Notes under the pieces: generated by a model
What the model saw: only the letters and a program-made list of their open reading frames with translations
What the model was told of the DNA's origin: nothing
Database searches by the model: none
Shown here: piece by piece, positions 8,231 through 14,227 of the stretch
Layout: every line of letters begins with the position of its first letter
Position numbering within the stretch: position 1 is the first letter of the stretch
Translations under genes and position numbers: made by a program
Assembly (NCBI GenBank): GCA_037143175.1
Contig: JBAWZF010000005.1
Location: 62,001 to 126,000 of the forward strand
Source of the DNA: a bacterium
GTDB lineage: Bacteria > Verrucomicrobiota > Kiritimatiellia > CAIKKV01 > CAITUY01
Length of the DNA stretch: 64,000 nt
Direction of reading: 5' to 3'

Positions 8231-8385
8231 TTTGATTTAACGGTGGCAGTTTTTTTTACAAGCCAACCCTTACACATTGCACAACGGGAATCGGAACACC
8301 AGTTACACATTTTGCATTCCGGACAGGGGTGCTTTTTTGCGCGGGTGGAGGACTTCTTAGGCCCGCACCCTCTTTTGCAACTCAT
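8227..8385 (-). CDS. 52-residue eight-cysteine protein between dsbD-like gene and zwf
   Basis: A short open frame with stops and starts interlocked with its neighbours. Its ATG (8385-8383) overlaps the stop of the dsbD-like gene as ATGA, and its TGA overlaps the zwf ATG the same way. The product starts MSCKRGCGPKK, has a basic stretch, then the cluster CPECKMCNWCSDSRCAMCKGW, and ends with a lysine-rich tail. Its eight cysteines (residues 3, 7, 21, 24, 27, 30, 35 and 38) are spaced mostly CxxC. That suggests binding of one or two zinc ions or another thiophilic metal, or a redox role. I do not recognise the family. The two 4-base overlaps argue strongly that it is translated. Confidence 0.7.
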   Translation of the reverse strand: MSCKRGCGPKKSSTRAKKHPCPECKMCNWCSDSRCAMCKGWLVKKTATVKSK

Positions 8386-10043
8386 TGCAAGGTGCTCCCC
8401 GCCTTGAGCACCACATAGGTAGGCAACCCTTTCACGCCGAAGAAATTGGCAAACTCACGGGTTCCCTTGTCGGCCAGATTTTCCGCCTGGAATTTCACAA
8501 CAATATATCCCGCCAAACGCTGCTTCACTTCCTGCGCGCGGAATGTAGTTAGCTCCATCGCTTCGCAATTCTTGCACCAGGTTGCCCAAAAATCGATAAA
8601 AACAGGCTTACCGGTTTTAGCGGAGTCCGCGACAACCGCTTGCCATGCGGCCGGATCCGAGCCCGTAATCTGATAGACCCCTGACTCAGCCTGCGCCACC
8701 ACCTTCTTACCCCACCACCCTTGATAGGCAAGGGAGAAGTAATACACGGCAAACAAAAGGATCAATACGCCAAACCCGGTTTTCACCCATGTCATCCAGG
8801 CACCCGGCTTGGGAAGAAACGATAACCCTGAGCCCGCAAAGGGCCACGGCAATGCCATACCAGCCCCCAGAATAAAGGGAAGCATCAACCCGATACTGGC
8901 CCCCTGCGCATAGAGATTACTGGACAAAAGCAACACGGCGATCACGACAGGCGCAACGCAGGCACCAGCAAGCAAAGCGGAAATCCCCCCCATGAACATT
9001 GCTGTCACCACTTTCCCCTGATTCCCATCGCTACCGGTTCCCGCCCTCTGGAATCGGGTCATATCAATGGAAAACACATCAAACATGGCGAGTGCCAGAA
9101 GGACAAACACCGAGGCTATGACCACGTTGAACCATGGCATGGAATTCAAAACCCCGAATTGCGACCCAGTCAACACCACAACCACCCCCAACACCCCATA
9201 TACCAAGGCAATTCCCACTCCATACGCTCCGCCCAGGAAAAACCCTTTGGCCTTGGTACCATTTTGAGCCCCCACCCCAATGATAGCCAAATTGATGGGG
9301 ATCATGGGAAGAACACAGGGCGTCAAATTCAACAGGAGGCCACCGGCAAGGATTATCATGACCGTCCACCACACCCCGTGAATCTTGAAAAACTCTAAAG
9401 GATTGGCGCTGAAAAGCAGGGAAGCTGCTTTCAGTCTAGCCGTAATACTTTCAGACTTTGCGGCAATATCCGCATGCCCTTCAGCCTTATTCAGAAAAGA
9501 CAGAAATTCCTTTGTGTTCAAATACCCTGATGCTGTGACCCTCCCCACCAGGGCCTGATTCCAACCTGCAATCCCTTCCGCCTTCGCCACTGATTTATCC
9601 GCCAGGGTGTCTCCAGATTGCTTCGAGGAAGAACTGACTGCGAATATTCTTGTTTTGGGAAAAAAGCATTGCTCTTCGCTGCACCCCTGATATGAAACCT
9701 TCAAAGCTTCATCTGACGCCACAGCAGTCCCCGAACGGAACAGCAACAAAACATTATTAGTATATGATAGACGTGCCCCGTCTGAAAAACTATCACGCAA
9801 AGTTACCGGTTGATCACCTCCGACAAGACTAAAAAGAGCGCCTGACCCAGACTCCACCCGCACTTGATCAGCATAAATGTGGTGATTCGGAGGGATCGTT
9901 ATACGCAGGGTGACAGTCAGATTGGAGCCATTTCCTTCCCTCGACAAATCAACTCCAAAAGGATCGGCTGCATAAACCCATGGGGATGCGCTCAGAATCA
10001 AAACCCATATCGAGAGGATACTTTTCAATATGGATTCCTTCAC
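8382..10043 (-). CDS. DsbD-like thiol:disulfide interchange protein
   Basis: The 553-residue membrane protein carries electrons from cytoplasmic thioredoxin to the periplasm. A signal peptide (about 1-26) is followed by a periplasmic DsbD-alpha-type domain with a Cys pair C121/C126 (GCSEEQC). The CcdA/DsbD transmembrane core has about eight helices and cysteines in NLTPCVLPM (C243) and GACVAPV (C362). A C-terminal thioredoxin-like domain has WCKNC (C490/C493). The start is the GTG at 10043. It overlaps the preceding stop as GTGA and has AGGAG about 7 bases upstream. The longer frame starting at 10064 lacks such a site. The gene is translationally linked to the Cys-rich gene upstream and to the 52-aa gene downstream. 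Confidence 0.9.
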   Translation of the reverse strand: MKESILKSILSIWVLILSASPWVYAADPFGVDLSREGNGSNLTVTLRITIPPNHHIYADQVRVESGSGALFSLVGGDQPVTLRDSFSDGARLSYTNNVLLLFRSGTAVASDEALKVSYQGCSEEQCFFPKTRIFAVSSSSKQSGDTLADKSVAKAEGIAGWNQALVGRVTASGYLNTKEFLSFLNKAEGHADIAAKSESITARLKAASLLFSANPLEFFKIHGVWWTVMIILAGGLLLNLTPCVLPMIPINLAIIGVGAQNGTKAKGFFLGGAYGVGIALVYGVLGVVVVLTGSQFGVLNSMPWFNVVIASVFVLLALAMFDVFSIDMTRFQRAGTGSDGNQGKVVTAMFMGGISALLAGACVAPVVIAVLLLSSNLYAQGASIGLMLPFILGAGMALPWPFAGSGLSFLPKPGAWMTWVKTGFGVLILLFAVYYFSLAYQGWWGKKVVAQAESGVYQITGSDPAAWQAVVADSAKTGKPVFIDFWATWCKNCEAMELTTFRAQEVKQRLAGYIVVKFQAENLADKGTREFANFFGVKGLPTYVVLKAGSTLQ

Positions 10044-10396
10044 GCAGCCTCTCCTTTGGGCCACTTCAGGACAATTTGCATAACTTCCCGCACGAAACTA
10101 CAGTCGCATTTTACGGGGCAAGATTTTAAATTATCGTTATGCAAACAATGACCAGGACATTTCAACGTTCCTGTCAATCGCTCATGATACTCTTCTCCCT
10201 GATACAAATCCCTGAAAAAGCCTGTTTGCATCGCCAGCGTTGTCAAACAACGCTGGTTCAGGTGATTAAACAGGAAATAACCCGTATCAAGTTTGTCGAA
10301 GTTAACCTGATAGCCAATCAGCTTAACCTGAGGATCGGACAAGAATTCCTCACGGCTGCCCCAATGATGGCCACAACATGTACATTTTTTAAACAT
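10040..10396 (-). CDS. Conserved Cys-rich hypothetical protein
   Basis: The product of about 118 residues begins MFKKCTCCGHHWGSREEFLSD. The centre contains LIGYQVNFDKLDTGYFLFNH. It ends with a second Cys cluster, CPGHCLHNDNLKSCPVKCDC, followed by VREVMQIVLKWP. From memory this pattern matches a small uncharacterised protein family seen in many bacteria. The N-terminal CxCCxxH and C-terminal CxxxC...CxxxCxC groups suggest bound zinc or iron-sulfur chemistry, which is inference. The ATG at 10396 is chosen over a TTG seven codons upstream because the family begins close to the first Cys motif. Its stop overlaps the GTG start of the dsbD-like gene by 4 bases. Confidence 0.75.
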   Translation of the reverse strand: MFKKCTCCGHHWGSREEFLSDPQVKLIGYQVNFDKLDTGYFLFNHLNQRCLTTLAMQTGFFRDLYQGEEYHERLTGTLKCPGHCLHNDNLKSCPVKCDCSFVREVMQIVLKWPKGEAA

Positions 10397-10435
10397 CACA
10401 TCTTTTTTCTGTATCAAGCATGAAAAAGGGCAAAA

Positions 10436-10488: not shown

Positions 10489-10989
10489 TCACCCTGCCTT
10501 AGCCCCACGCTTTCCGAGCTGCTTGTCCACCATAAACAAGGTGCCCGTGGAAGTCCCGGCCATCTTGATCATGGCAATGATATCTGCATCATTAGCCTCT
10601 TCCTCGATCTGCTCCGTAATGTACCACTGCAACAAAGCCTGAGTCGCATAATCCTTCTCCGAGACCGCGAGATCCATCAGGGCGTTAAGCGACTTCGTGA
10701 CCAGTTTTTCATGTTTCAGCGTGTCGACATACATGTCCAGCAGGGCCTTGTACCCAACGGTCGGCTTATCGATCGCTCCAAACTCAACAACCTCACCCTG
10801 GCTCAGGAGATAATTGTAGAATTTCAGGGCATGCTCCAACTCCTCCTGAAACTGAACCTTGAACCACGTACCGGCTCCTTTAAATCCAAGAGAGATCGCA
10901 TTTGCCGACATGGCAAGATACAGGTACGAGGAAAAAATCTCCTTGTTAACCTGATCGTTAATCGCCTTGGCCATCTGTTTTGATATCAT
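10489..10989 (-). CDS. ftnA: Bacterial non-haem ferritin
   Basis: The 166-residue ferritin stores iron as a 24-subunit shell and has ferroxidase activity. Characteristic residues are seen in the N-terminal helix (QVNKEIFSSYLYLAMS), in the second helix (FQEELEHALKFYNYL, with the E-x-x-H ferroxidase pair) and in YITEQIEEEANDAD. The start is the ATG at 10989 with GGAAGG 8 bases upstream, giving MISKQMAKAIN like other FtnA proteins. Only two bases separate it from the desulfoferrodoxin stop. It is the last gene before the hairpin at 10436-10475. Together with the superoxide reductase it would limit free ferrous iron and peroxide damage in an oxygen-sensitive cell. Confidence 0.95.
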   Translation of the reverse strand: MISKQMAKAINDQVNKEIFSSYLYLAMSANAISLGFKGAGTWFKVQFQEELEHALKFYNYLLSQGEVVEFGAIDKPTVGYKALLDMYVDTLKHEKLVTKSLNALMDLAVSEKDYATQALLQWYITEQIEEEANDADIIAMIKMAGTSTGTLFMVDKQLGKRGAKAG

Positions 10990-10991
10990 AA

Positions 10992-11369
10992 TCAGCCCTT
11001 CCACAATCCATGAAGATTACAAAACTCACGCGCAACGATATTGGTCGCCGTCACACCCTCGAATATGGCGATAGGCGGAACGCCAGGCTTGAGATACTGC
11101 CGAAGTAGGGTGTCGCCCACAAGAAGCTCAATCCACTCAATGTAATGCTTCTCTTCCATGGGATGAGCCACGCTCCCTACCGTCACCTTGATCCCGCCGG
11201 CTACATGCTCAATCACGGGAATATGCTTCTCTTTAGAAGCATCTACCGTATTCTCAGCCCGTAATTTCATTTCCTGCCCGCAGCAAACCAATTGTCCGGC
11301 AGAAGCATGAACCATCTCGACAATATTTCCGCATAACTCGCATTTGTAAACTTCTGAACGTTTCGTCAT
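10992..11369 (-). CDS. dfx: Desulfoferrodoxin (superoxide reductase)
   Basis: Reduces superoxide to hydrogen peroxide without forming oxygen, typical of anaerobes. The 125-residue product has the N-terminal desulforedoxin domain with YKCELCGN and the adjacent pair VCCGQEM. The catalytic iron site follows, with His ligands in EKHIPVIEH and EEKHYIEWI and the C-terminal CNLHG that supplies the Cys and last His. This is the two-domain class I form. A GGAGA Shine-Dalgarno sequence precedes the ATG. The rubredoxin immediately upstream is the usual electron donor, supporting the assignment and co-transcription. Confidence 0.97.
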
Positions 11370-11394: not shown

Positions 11395-11553
11395 TCAACC
11401 CTGTGGGGAAAATTCATCCTTACCAACTCCACAATCCGGACACAGCCAACCAGCGGGAATATCCGCGAAACTTGTACCCGGCGCGACTCCGTGATCAGGA
11501 TCACCTTTAGCGGGGTCATAAACATAACCACACACATTACATATATACGTCAT
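11395..11553 (-). CDS. Rubredoxin
   Basis: A 52-residue iron protein. Two CxxC-G pairs, [14 protein letters not shown] at the N-terminus and [13 protein letters not shown] at the C-terminus, bind a single iron through four cysteines, with the conserved aromatic residues between them. It transfers electrons, here most likely to the desulfoferrodoxin encoded next. AAGGAG lies 6 bases before the ATG. The length and sequence are canonical. Confidence 0.97.
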
Positions 11554-11562
11554 CCCTGCTCC

Positions 11563-12066
11563 TTATTTGTTTCTTTTATTCTTCAACAGTTTTCTCAAAT
11601 GCGTAACATAATTCTCGCCCCCACCGGCCAAATAACTGGTCCGTTCCAGTAATTTTCCCTCTGCATCAAGCAGCAGAATCGTGGGGAATCCCTGAATCCC
11701 GTACTTTTCAGACAAATCATTGTTTTGTTTTTTAAGCTCATCCGACTGCGGCTTGCTTCGAGGGAAATCAACCAGCAGTAACACTAGATTTTCTGCGGCA
11801 TATTTCTTGAAAACATCTGTAGAAAAAACCTCTTTATCAAGTTTTATGCACCAGCCGCACCAGTCAGATCCGGAAAAATCCGCAAGAATCGGAACATTCC
11901 GCCTGGCCGCTTCTGCTTTCGCCTCTGAAAGTGAGGTTAGCCACACCGCTTTTTCGAGAACAACAGCTTTCACGACCGCGCTTCCTTCACTCTTCGGCAC
12001 CTCAGCCGAATATCCGACGATCCCCGACAAATACATCAATACCACTAAACTTAATTTAATTTTCAT
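11563..12066 (-). CDS. Secreted thioredoxin-like protein (thioredoxin_7 type)
   Basis: The 167-residue product has an N-terminal signal peptide (KIKLSLVVLMYLSGIVGYSA) and a thioredoxin fold of the DUF255/thioredoxin_7 kind with active site SDWCGWCIKLD. The cis-proline segment is GIQGFPTILLLD. It probably works in the periplasm as a disulfide reductase or isomerase and could accept electrons from the DsbD-like protein encoded 2 kb downstream, which is inference. The ATG at 12066 is chosen because it starts directly at the signal peptide and AAAGGTG precedes it. ATGs at 12090 and 12081 would only add a hydrophilic leader. The rubredoxin gene follows after 9 bases. Confidence 0.88.
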   Translation of the reverse strand: MKIKLSLVVLMYLSGIVGYSAEVPKSEGSAVVKAVVLEKAVWLTSLSEAKAEAARRNVPILADFSGSDWCGWCIKLDKEVFSTDVFKKYAAENLVLLLVDFPRSKPQSDELKKQNNDLSEKYGIQGFPTILLLDAEGKLLERTSYLAGGGENYVTHLRKLLKNKRNK

Positions 12067-12095
12067 CCTGTCACCTTTCATGTTACTCACCAGTT

Positions 12096-12296
12096 TTAAC
12101 CCACTCCACGCTTTACCTCGTGCGCCTCAAACTCACGCCGCGCTGCAGTCCTTATCCTATATCCACAGTCTTTTGTTAACCCATATAAAGACATGCAATT
12201 TTCATCAGTACATTCAGCTTGCCCCTTATCAGCAACAATTATCAATTCCGTTGCGACCTGAATTAACGCCCTGATGTTTTCATTGTAGTCATCCAT
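12096..12296 (-). CDS. 66-residue protein, first gene of the redox operon
   Basis: The product starts MDDYNENIRALIQVATELI, is mostly helical, and contains three cysteines in AECTDENCMSLYGLTKDCGYRIR. It has no signal peptide or membrane segment and I do not recognise it. Translation is supported by a GGAG about 10 bases before the ATG. It also sits about 25 bases downstream of a sigma-54 promoter and 29 bases ahead of the thioredoxin gene. The Cys spacing might bind a metal or serve as a redox switch, but that is a guess. Confidence 0.62.
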   Translation of the reverse strand: MDDYNENIRALIQVATELIIVADKGQAECTDENCMSLYGLTKDCGYRIRTAARREFEAHEVKRGVG

Positions 12297-12331
12297 GCAT
12301 TCTTCTCCAATAAATTTCTTGATGATTACTG

Positions 12332-12348
12332 ATGCAGGATGCGTGCCC
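12332..12348 (-). promoter_or_regulatory. Sigma-54 (-24/-12) promoter of the redox operon
   Basis: On the minus strand the sequence GGGCACGCATCCTGCAT matches the consensus TGGCACG-N4-TTGCA with two mismatches. It has the invariant GG and GC with exactly 10 bases between them. The predicted start point is near 12320, just upstream of the 66-aa gene. The adjacent upstream gene encodes a sigma-54 activator, which fits. Confidence 0.72.
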
Positions 12349-12376
12349 AGTGCGGAGCTTTTGATCGAATTGTTAT

Positions 12377-12401
12377 TAACGTATTCGTAGTGAATACGTT
12401 A
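12377..12401. promoter_or_regulatory. Perfect 10-bp palindrome, candidate activator site
   Basis: TAACGTATTC and GAATACGTTA flank a 5-base spacer. The centre is about 65-70 bases upstream of the predicted sigma-54 start point, in the only gap between the redox operon and its neighbouring activator gene. A dimeric Fis-type helix-turn-helix protein would bind such a site. An operator for another repressor cannot be excluded. Confidence 0.55.
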
Positions 12402-12463
12402 CAGCCATGAGGCAACAGCGCAACAATTGAAGGATGTGTCTCAAATCACATGTAAAGAATGTC

Positions 12464-14227
12464 TCACGCCTCAGGCGTGATAGATTCTTCCATGAAACGA
12501 TACAGTGTCGCACGAGACACTCCCAGAGCCTTGGCGGCTTCAACTTTGTTGCCCCCCACCCGCTCAAGAGTCTCACGAACGATCTGCTGAGTCAGGCGTT
12601 GTTTCCCTTTGGAAGGGGGAGCCAGAGCGGCTGCCACCCCATGCGTCGGCTGCGCCTTAAGTGCAATGGGCGGCAAATGCTCTTGCAAAATTGTACCGCC
12701 CTTACATTTGATCAGGGCAAACTGAATCCAATTCTGGAGTTCACGTACATTGCCGGGCCAGTTGTAGCCCAACATGAAATCCAAGGCATCAGGCGAAAAC
12801 GTGATTGGCTTGCCACCTGCATACAGCTTCAAAAAATGATTGGCCAGCAGGGGGATGTCGGTTCGCCGCTCTCTCAACGGCGGCAACGTAAGCGGAACGA
12901 CGCTGAGCCGGTAGAATAAATCTTCACGAAACTTGCCTGCAGCCATTTCTTGAATCAGGTCGCGATGAGTGGCACTAATAACCCTGACATTGACCTTGAT
13001 GGTCTTCTCGCTCCCGACCTGTTCAAAGCGGCCTTCTTGCAGCACCCGGAGCAACTTAACCTGCATGGCGGGCGAAATATCACCAATTTCATCGAGGAAA
13101 ATGGTGCCCCCGTCCGCCAGCTCAAAACGCCCTTTCTTATCGCGAATAGCCCCTGTGAAAGCGCCCTTTACATGCCCGAACAACTCGCTTTCAAGCAAGC
13201 CTTCCGGCAAGGCCCCGCAATTCACGGGTACAAACATTTTATTCGCACGAGGCCCTTCATTGTGAAGCGCGACCGCAATCAGTTCCTTACCCGTCCCACT
13301 TTCGCCCTGCACAAGAATCGGTGCCGAGGATTCCGCTAACTCGGGTATGATATCGTAGAGCGCCTGCATCTTGGGGTCACGCCCGATAATGCCGCTAAAC
13401 TGTTCAATCTCACCCAAACGACGGGCCAACTGCACCTCAAGTGTTAAATCCCGAAAACAAGCTAATAATCCCAACGGATGGCCTTGATCATTCTTCATGA
13501 CATTAAGATTCATATGAATCCGCCGTCGTTCACCTGTACGGGTAACGATCTCGAGATCTTTGCTGGCGGGATATTCCGGCAGAGCGTTCCCCTCACAAAA
13601 CGAACACTTCGCGCCGCATAACCCACTGGGCAAGGCTTCGTGACAGTCACGATTCAACAAGTCTTCACGCTTATACCCGGTGATCCGCTCTGCTGCCGCA
13701 TTGAAATAAAATATCCGCCGATTCAAATCATGAGCAATCACACCCTCGGAGATATTATCCAATATCAGATCATATTCATGTTTTGAGGCAAGAAAGGCCG
13801 ACAGATATCCCCTCGCATAAAAATCGTCTACCAAGCGCTTGATCATATCACGCGTCTCACGGAATGCCTGCAAGCGCCATTCCACATCCCCCTTCAAGGA
13901 GGCTGGCTCCGGGATATTCCAAAGCAGTTTCTGGGGATTTCCCGGCAACATCCGACCTGCTTCAGCGGCCTCTTCAGATAAAGCCACCATCACATCAAAA
14001 GCACAATTACCCAGATCAGCCACCCGCATGCCAACCGAACCGTCACCCGAAAGATGTACCTCTGACAAAACCCGCCACACCAACGGGTCGACCGTACCGG
14101 AAAGCACACCGGCATAACGGGCAACAACATTTTTCCGACAAATTGCATTGGCAAAGGCCGCCGCCATGGCGCCACAACTGGCATCAGATCCCCCCACAAA
14201 CAAAAGTTGATCCACCTTCTCAGTCAT
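12464..14227 (-). CDS. Sigma-54-dependent regulator with degenerate LMW-phosphatase/ArsC-like sensor and PAS domain
   Basis: The 587-residue product has four parts. Residues 5-138 follow the low-molecular-weight phosphatase/ArsC fold (QLLFVGG at the P-loop, VALSEEAAEAG, LLWNIPEPAS, AFRETRDMIKRL). The catalytic Cys and Arg of CX5R are replaced (Gly and Cys), and the general-acid Asp of the DP motif is Glu, so it is probably a sensor rather than an enzyme. A PAS domain (about 152-265) carries extra cysteines (CHEALPSGLCGAKCSFC). The AAA+ domain has Walker A GESGTGKE at 308-315, the sigma-54 contact loop GAFTGA at 355-360 and Walker B GGTIFLDE at 373-380. The C-terminus is a Fis-type helix-turn-helix. 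It likely activates the redox operon downstream. The signal is unknown. Confidence 0.88.
   Translation of the reverse strand: MTEKVDQLLFVGGSDASCGAMAAAFANAICRKNVVARYAGVLSGTVDPLVWRVLSEVHLSGDGSVGMRVADLGNCAFDVMVALSEEAAEAGRMLPGNPQKLLWNIPEPASLKGDVEWRLQAFRETRDMIKRLVDDFYARGYLSAFLASKHEYDLILDNISEGVIAHDLNRRIFYFNAAAERITGYKREDLLNRDCHEALPSGLCGAKCSFCEGNALPEYPASKDLEIVTRTGERRRIHMNLNVMKNDQGHPLGLLACFRDLTLEVQLARRLGEIEQFSGIIGRDPKMQALYDIIPELAESSAPILVQGESGTGKELIAVALHNEGPRANKMFVPVNCGALPEGLLESELFGHVKGAFTGAIRDKKGRFELADGGTIFLDEIGDISPAMQVKLLRVLQEGRFEQVGSEKTIKVNVRVISATHRDLIQEMAAGKFREDLFYRLSVVPLTLPPLRERRTDIPLLANHFLKLYAGGKPITFSPDALDFMLGYNWPGNVRELQNWIQFALIKCKGGTILQEHLPPIALKAQPTHGVAAALAPPSKGKQRLTQQIVRETLERVGGNKVEAAKALGVSRATLYRFMEESITPEA

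Follow-up and report, generated by a model that had tools for sequence, protein, structure and literature searches.

The 64-kb stretch of DNA analysed here (the window) contains a candidate three-part sigma-54 promoter which, at a probability we place at about 0.78, drives the oxygen-defence operon of an anaerobe of the Kiritimatiellia through a TGAGACA-bound activator, a DNABII-induced bend at a dyad and a -24/-12 box. Based on sequence comparisons, the operon is very probably switched on by the neighbouring sigma-54 activator reading TGAGACA. The operon served would comprise p66 (a 66-aa protein), thioredoxin, rubredoxin, superoxide reductase, ferritin, p125 (a 125-aa protein) and DsbD. In the proposed mechanism, the activator, encoded directly upstream on the same strand, would bind TGAGACA words near -118 and -141, and a DNABII protein resembling IHF and probably homodimeric would bind the symmetric dyad near -67 and bend the DNA, thus allowing the activator hexamer to reach the sigma-54 polymerase. 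The hexamer would then open the promoter through ATP hydrolysis. Redox stress may be sensed via a cysteine cluster in the PAS domain of the activator and, in relatives, perhaps also via its ArsC-like domain.

The promoter region occupies a 167-base gap (12297-12463) between the activator gene (12464-14227) and the p66 ORF (12096-12296), both located on the minus strand. The features that the initial annotation had described in this gap, namely a minus-strand box with exact GG-N10-GC spacing and a perfect 10+5+10 palindrome, are all present. The box (TGGGCACGCATCCTGCA, 12333-12349, minus strand) corresponds to a sigma-54 -24/-12 promoter and agrees with 10 of 12 consensus letters. Its -12 C is found at 12334, placing the predicted start near 12322 and leaving a predicted leader of 26 nt before p66. 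By itself, such a box has a p of ~0.025 in 450 bases. Sigma-54 (rpoN) is encoded in the genome as one copy (PF04552, 5.9e-58).

Homologues of p66 were identified in 13 of 57 relatives, and a profile search with a cut-off of E <= 0.001 detected them in 36 of 288 class genomes, ~31 of these being strong matches. The named records of the group are Kiritimatiellia; p66 also occurs in Lentisphaerae/Victivallales, Planctomycetota, Deltaproteobacteria, Sumerlaeota, Fibrobacter, Chitinivibrionales and Acidobacteria. Many of the compared genomes are incomplete drafts, and the counts given here are raw, without tree correction. The best sigma-54 match ahead of p66 scores 17-21 of 22 in 30 class genomes including that of the window; among the 29 others, most boxes score 18-21, G159 scores 17 and G114 is doubtful, with no convincing promoter arrangement upstream of its p66. 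Most p66 boxes are individually unusual when compared with shuffled sequences, exceptions including G159 (p 0.56), G119 (0.20) and G042 (0.16), and the combined p over the 30 genomes is ~3e-21, ignoring kinship. Boxes were picked by best score before distances were taken, which biases the distances reported below towards agreement. Boxes of the same kind precede p66 in several other phyla, and several deltaproteobacterial and Fibrobacter p66 loci were found without the promoter architecture. Homologues of the activator (E <= 1e-150) are encoded in 34 of the 288 class genomes and co-occur with p66 in 28 (activator 34, p66 31; Fisher p 9e-30, ignoring kinship). Sigma-54 control by a matching adjacent activator, as initially proposed, is thus supported at the sequence level by the conserved box, the co-occurrence of activator and p66 and the presence of rpoN.

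Two TGAGACA words, absent from the initial annotation, are found further upstream in the window, in direct orientation and 23 bp apart. The candidate promoter-proximal activator site (UAS) is located at 12437-12443 (minus strand, centre ~-118), and the candidate distal UAS, which overlaps the activator stop codon, at 12460-12466 (minus strand, centre ~-141). Among the 7-mers in 165-base stretches ahead of 45 boxes, TGAGACA (27) and TGTCTCA (20) rank first and second. In 23 of 45 regions the exact word starts between -99 and -89, counted from the T of TGGCAC, and allowing up to one mismatch it is found at the fixed position in 31 of 44; about half of the 45 regions lack the exact word there, some carrying TGATACA or TGACACA and others neither. 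In relatives, a second word lies further upstream, often inverted, at spacings of ~21-23, 29-33, 40-43 or 52-53 bp. Across the window's own genome, the pattern TGAGACA-N78-94-GGCAY-N7-GC matches once, at the p66 promoter. Six genomes (G006, G008, G029, G053, G107 and G119) carry p66 and the activator on different contigs, and in all six the p66 promoter retains at least one of TGAGACA and TGTCTCA, with neither word found at the activator loci. TGAGACA is therefore a conserved, operon-specific upstream word that is kept where the activator gene is unlinked, and the TGAGACA words are likely the binding sites of the activator. The regulatory arrangement had been called complete and self-contained, a description that fits the window's genus and fails for the six genomes with unlinked activators; regulation probably also depends on an IHF-like protein. 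Separately, the exact word combined with the box was considered as a class-wide marker and rejected: a hand tally gave 27 of 34 activator-bearing genomes vs 52 of 254 others, a background of ~20%.

The palindrome (TAACGTATTC/GAATACGTTA, 12377-12386 and 12392-12401) is 100% complementary with a 5-base loop and has its centre at 12389, near -67 from the predicted start and within the 65-70 bases first estimated. Only 2 of 2000 shuffles of the 167-base gap contain one perfect 10-base inverted repeat. Across the window, three such repeats with loops of up to 10 bases are found vs 0-4 in ten shuffles, so that the palindrome by itself is not remarkable at this scale and comparative support was needed. 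Relatives keep only the outer arms (RTAAC-N17-GTTRC), and the inner arms are not conserved in the aligned p66 upstream regions. The promoter-palindrome pair that the initial annotation proposed to look for in relatives is hence found in part, as a conserved box with dyad outer arms at a fixed distance, the perfect palindrome itself not being conserved. In the window, the corresponding dyad GTAAC-N17-GTTAA (12376-12402) encloses the palindrome and represents a candidate IHF/HU-family (DNABII) bend site centred near -67. The N17 dyad reaches 9 or more matches out of 10 in 13 of 45 p66 regions, whereas other spacings from 6 to 30 give 0-2 and the shuffle mean is 0.28. At least 8 of 10 matches are found in 23 of the 45 regions, and in nearly all of these the distance between the dyad centre and the T of TGGCAC is 39-43 bases.

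The dyad is not confined to p66. A combined dyad and box pattern yields 53 matches in 28 genomes vs 0 for the reversed control, and the gap between the two elements is 28-32 in 50 of 52 among the matches listed; gaps of 34-64 give 6 matches vs 4 in the control. The 44 listed matches not associated with p66 have a T before GG in 42 cases and a T before GC in 42, both letters lying outside the search pattern. Genes downstream include those for ammonium transporters (amtB), glutamine synthetase III, DnaK and Hsp20, and these promoters carry words other than TGAGACA upstream. The presence of dyad and box at many unrelated sigma-54 genes identifies the dyad as a shared element of the sigma-54 promoters of the class; in a phylum sample, matches outside the class are few and little above control. 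Within the window's own genome, dyad and box are found ahead of dnaK (G000:C12:1396-1466, L198), and dnaK-like genes of six relatives show the same arrangement, with GCGACA/TGTCGC-like words upstream in several, together suggesting a probable sigma-54 chaperone regulon. The loci with dyad and box ahead of ammonium transporters and type III glutamine synthetase (L181, L185, L188, L191, L201 and L186), several of which carry an ATACAT/ATGTAT-like word upstream, serve as a built-in positive control for sigma-54.

These observations bear directly on what the palindrome is. It had been taken as the operator of the adjacent activator, in which case TGAGACA would serve something else, and its location next to the activator gene, its perfect symmetry in the window's genome and the frequent binding of palindromes by Fis-type activators would agree with such a role. 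However, the inner arms are unconserved, the dyad is found ahead of amtB, glutamine synthetase, dnaK and hsp20 as well, without TGAGACA in the upstream stretches examined there, and the operon-specific word is TGAGACA and not the dyad. We reject an operator function as improbable because only the outer arms are conserved and these are common to other regulons. A role in RNA, as terminator of the activator transcript, appears more remote still: although a transcript could form the hairpin 63-87 bases beyond the stop codon of the activator gene, the stem is AT-rich with no T run following, a terminator scan picks another hairpin (12464-12480) which is itself within shuffle expectation, and the position of the dyad relative to the promoter is kept at other genes too.

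Somewhat stronger, if still unlikely, is the possibility that the dyad is bound at many sigma-54 promoters by another global regulator outside the IHF/HU family, such as a repressor or a co-activator. A dimeric helix-turn-helix protein would fit equally well to symmetric half-sites of 5 bp separated by two helical turns, and the dyad is indeed common to many promoters. However, the dyad is located between UAS and box, the usual position for IHF, and its inner AR/YT steps at 9 bp with TTR four bases further correspond to the IHF core. In 22 aligned dyads, YT and AR positions are 9 bp apart and lie four bases inside TAA and TTR, so that the dyad consensus holds ARNNNNTTR on each side, equivalent to a symmetric IHF consensus; with respect to the full WATCAR inner consensus, the inner positions are weakly biased. 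The 9 bp between the AR steps equal the spacing of the intercalations in IHF (PMC8421141). Four DNABII proteins are encoded in the window's genome (G000), one of them IHF-beta-like, and the candidate partner of the dyad is the protein encoded on contig C13. This IHF-beta-like protein is widespread, with a close relative in 25 of 28 genomes and no close match to the DNABII query in the other 3. Its E-F/L-R motif matches E44/R46 of E. coli IHF-beta, residues with a role at TTR. We infer that the dyad is an IHF/HU-family bending site bound by a DNABII homodimer.

The genes following the promoter are all encoded on the minus strand. Pfam confirms the initial assignments of sigma-54 activator, thioredoxin, rubredoxin, desulfoferrodoxin and ferritin, the 66-aa ORF being without family. 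p66 (12096-12296), the first operon gene, belongs to a conserved orphan family with the signature DDGC...RDCAYKIR...ERE...H, for which Pfam and PDB sequence searches returned no relative. Its predicted fold is a two-helix hairpin (AlphaFold2 mean pLDDT 92), and a structure search gave no match below E 0.66; the insignificant fold matches include encapsulated ferritin-like EncB/EncC. The thioredoxin-like protein (11563-12072; Thioredoxin_7, 4.8e-15) carries a WCGWC motif and an N-terminus which, judged by eye, resembles a signal peptide, and its gene adjoins p66 in most relatives. It is followed by rubredoxin (11395-11553; PF00301, 2.7e-24), a two-domain desulfoferrodoxin/superoxide reductase (10992-11369; PF01880 and PF06397) and ferritin (10489-11004; PF00210, 2.4e-37). 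The cysteine-rich p125 (10040-10417), encoded between ferritin and DsbD, has no family in a Pfam search and is likely part of the same operon, its synteny being kept in L015, L022, L023 and L027. A DsbD-like thiol transporter with a thioredoxin domain (8382-10064), assigned by Pfam and syntenic in relatives, is likely the last gene. As the gene run from p66 to DsbD is syntenic in relatives, we treat it as one presumably co-transcribed operon. In G090, a second TGAGACA word with dyad and box is located ahead of a desulfoferrodoxin-like gene (G090:C74:7470-7578, L146), which suggests that the regulon is divided among several operons in this genome.

The activator (12464-14227, minus strand, 587 aa) shows an ArsC-PAS(Cys4)-AAA+-Fis architecture according to Pfam, NCBIfam, PDB profile and Foldseek searches, with an ArsC-like domain at ~1-140, PAS at 151-262, AAA+ at 280-446 and a Fis-type HTH at 548-577. 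The AAA+ sigma-54 interaction domain (PF00158, 2.4e-70) contains the GAFTGA motif in the translation ELFGHVKGAFTGA. The C-terminal Fis-type HTH (PF02954, 1.9e-08) has a recognition helix, SRATLYRFL, that is almost invariant among homologues. At the N-terminus, the ArsC-like domain is similar to thioredoxin-coupled ArsC (NCBIfam 1.4e-10), with 1jl3 as the best match both in the profile search and in Foldseek (E 6e-10; AlphaFold2 model, mean pLDDT 84). The ArsC triad positions are cysteine in 21, 22 and 19 of 41 aligned sequences, i.e. in about half, and are occupied by G, S and G in the window's activator, which lacks all three catalytic cysteines; a sensing role for the ArsC-like domain is therefore doubtful here. 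The PAS domain carries C195-X8-C204-X3-C208-X2-C211, and these four positions are cysteine in 36, 35, 38 and 29 of 41 sequences. We infer that this cluster senses redox.

Together, these results provide a testable oxygen-defence regulon with a named candidate activator site for poorly studied anaerobes, suggest a symmetric bend element common to the sigma-54 promoters of the class and, in several phyla, link superoxide reductase operons to a redox-type activator family. In Kiritimatiellia genomes, the dyad could help to predict promoters and regulons of sigma-54. A broader generalization has roughly even odds: a class-wide layout, perhaps extending to related phyla, in which a homodimeric IHF-beta-like protein occupies a symmetric site near-fixed from the box in many regulons, together with an undescribed ArsC-PAS(Cys4) activator family controlling oxygen defence across several phyla. 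The initial annotation held that sigma-54 control of superoxide reductase is described in few bacteria; no earlier account of it or of this regulon was found in the open-access literature, searched mostly by words in main texts, most subscription journals lying outside that scope.

Sigma-54 promoters at which IHF assists enhancer-binding proteins are known from the nif and Pu type. The promoter described here resembles them in having upstream activator sites, an intervening putative bend site and a -24/-12 box. In contrast to these systems, the putative bend site is symmetric and does not follow the one-sided IHF consensus, and the dyad keeps a nearly constant distance to the box and reappears in different regulons of the class. 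Background on IHF-assisted promoters is given in the background section of PMC4641369, which reports the comparative reconstruction of activators, UAS and promoters of the sigma-54 regulome in another anaerobe, Desulfovibrio vulgaris; a word search of its main text returned no rubredoxin, superoxide reductase, desulfoferrodoxin or TGAGAC. The predicted N-terminal fold of the activator is that of thioredoxin-coupled ArsC (pI258/B. subtilis type), with the cysteine triad present in many relatives, but unlike these enzymes it forms a domain of a transcription activator and has lost the triad in the window's protein. NreB is a PAS sensor with an Fe-S cluster. Similar to NreB, the PAS domain of the activator has four conserved cysteines, here with the spacing C-X8-C-X3-C-X2-C.
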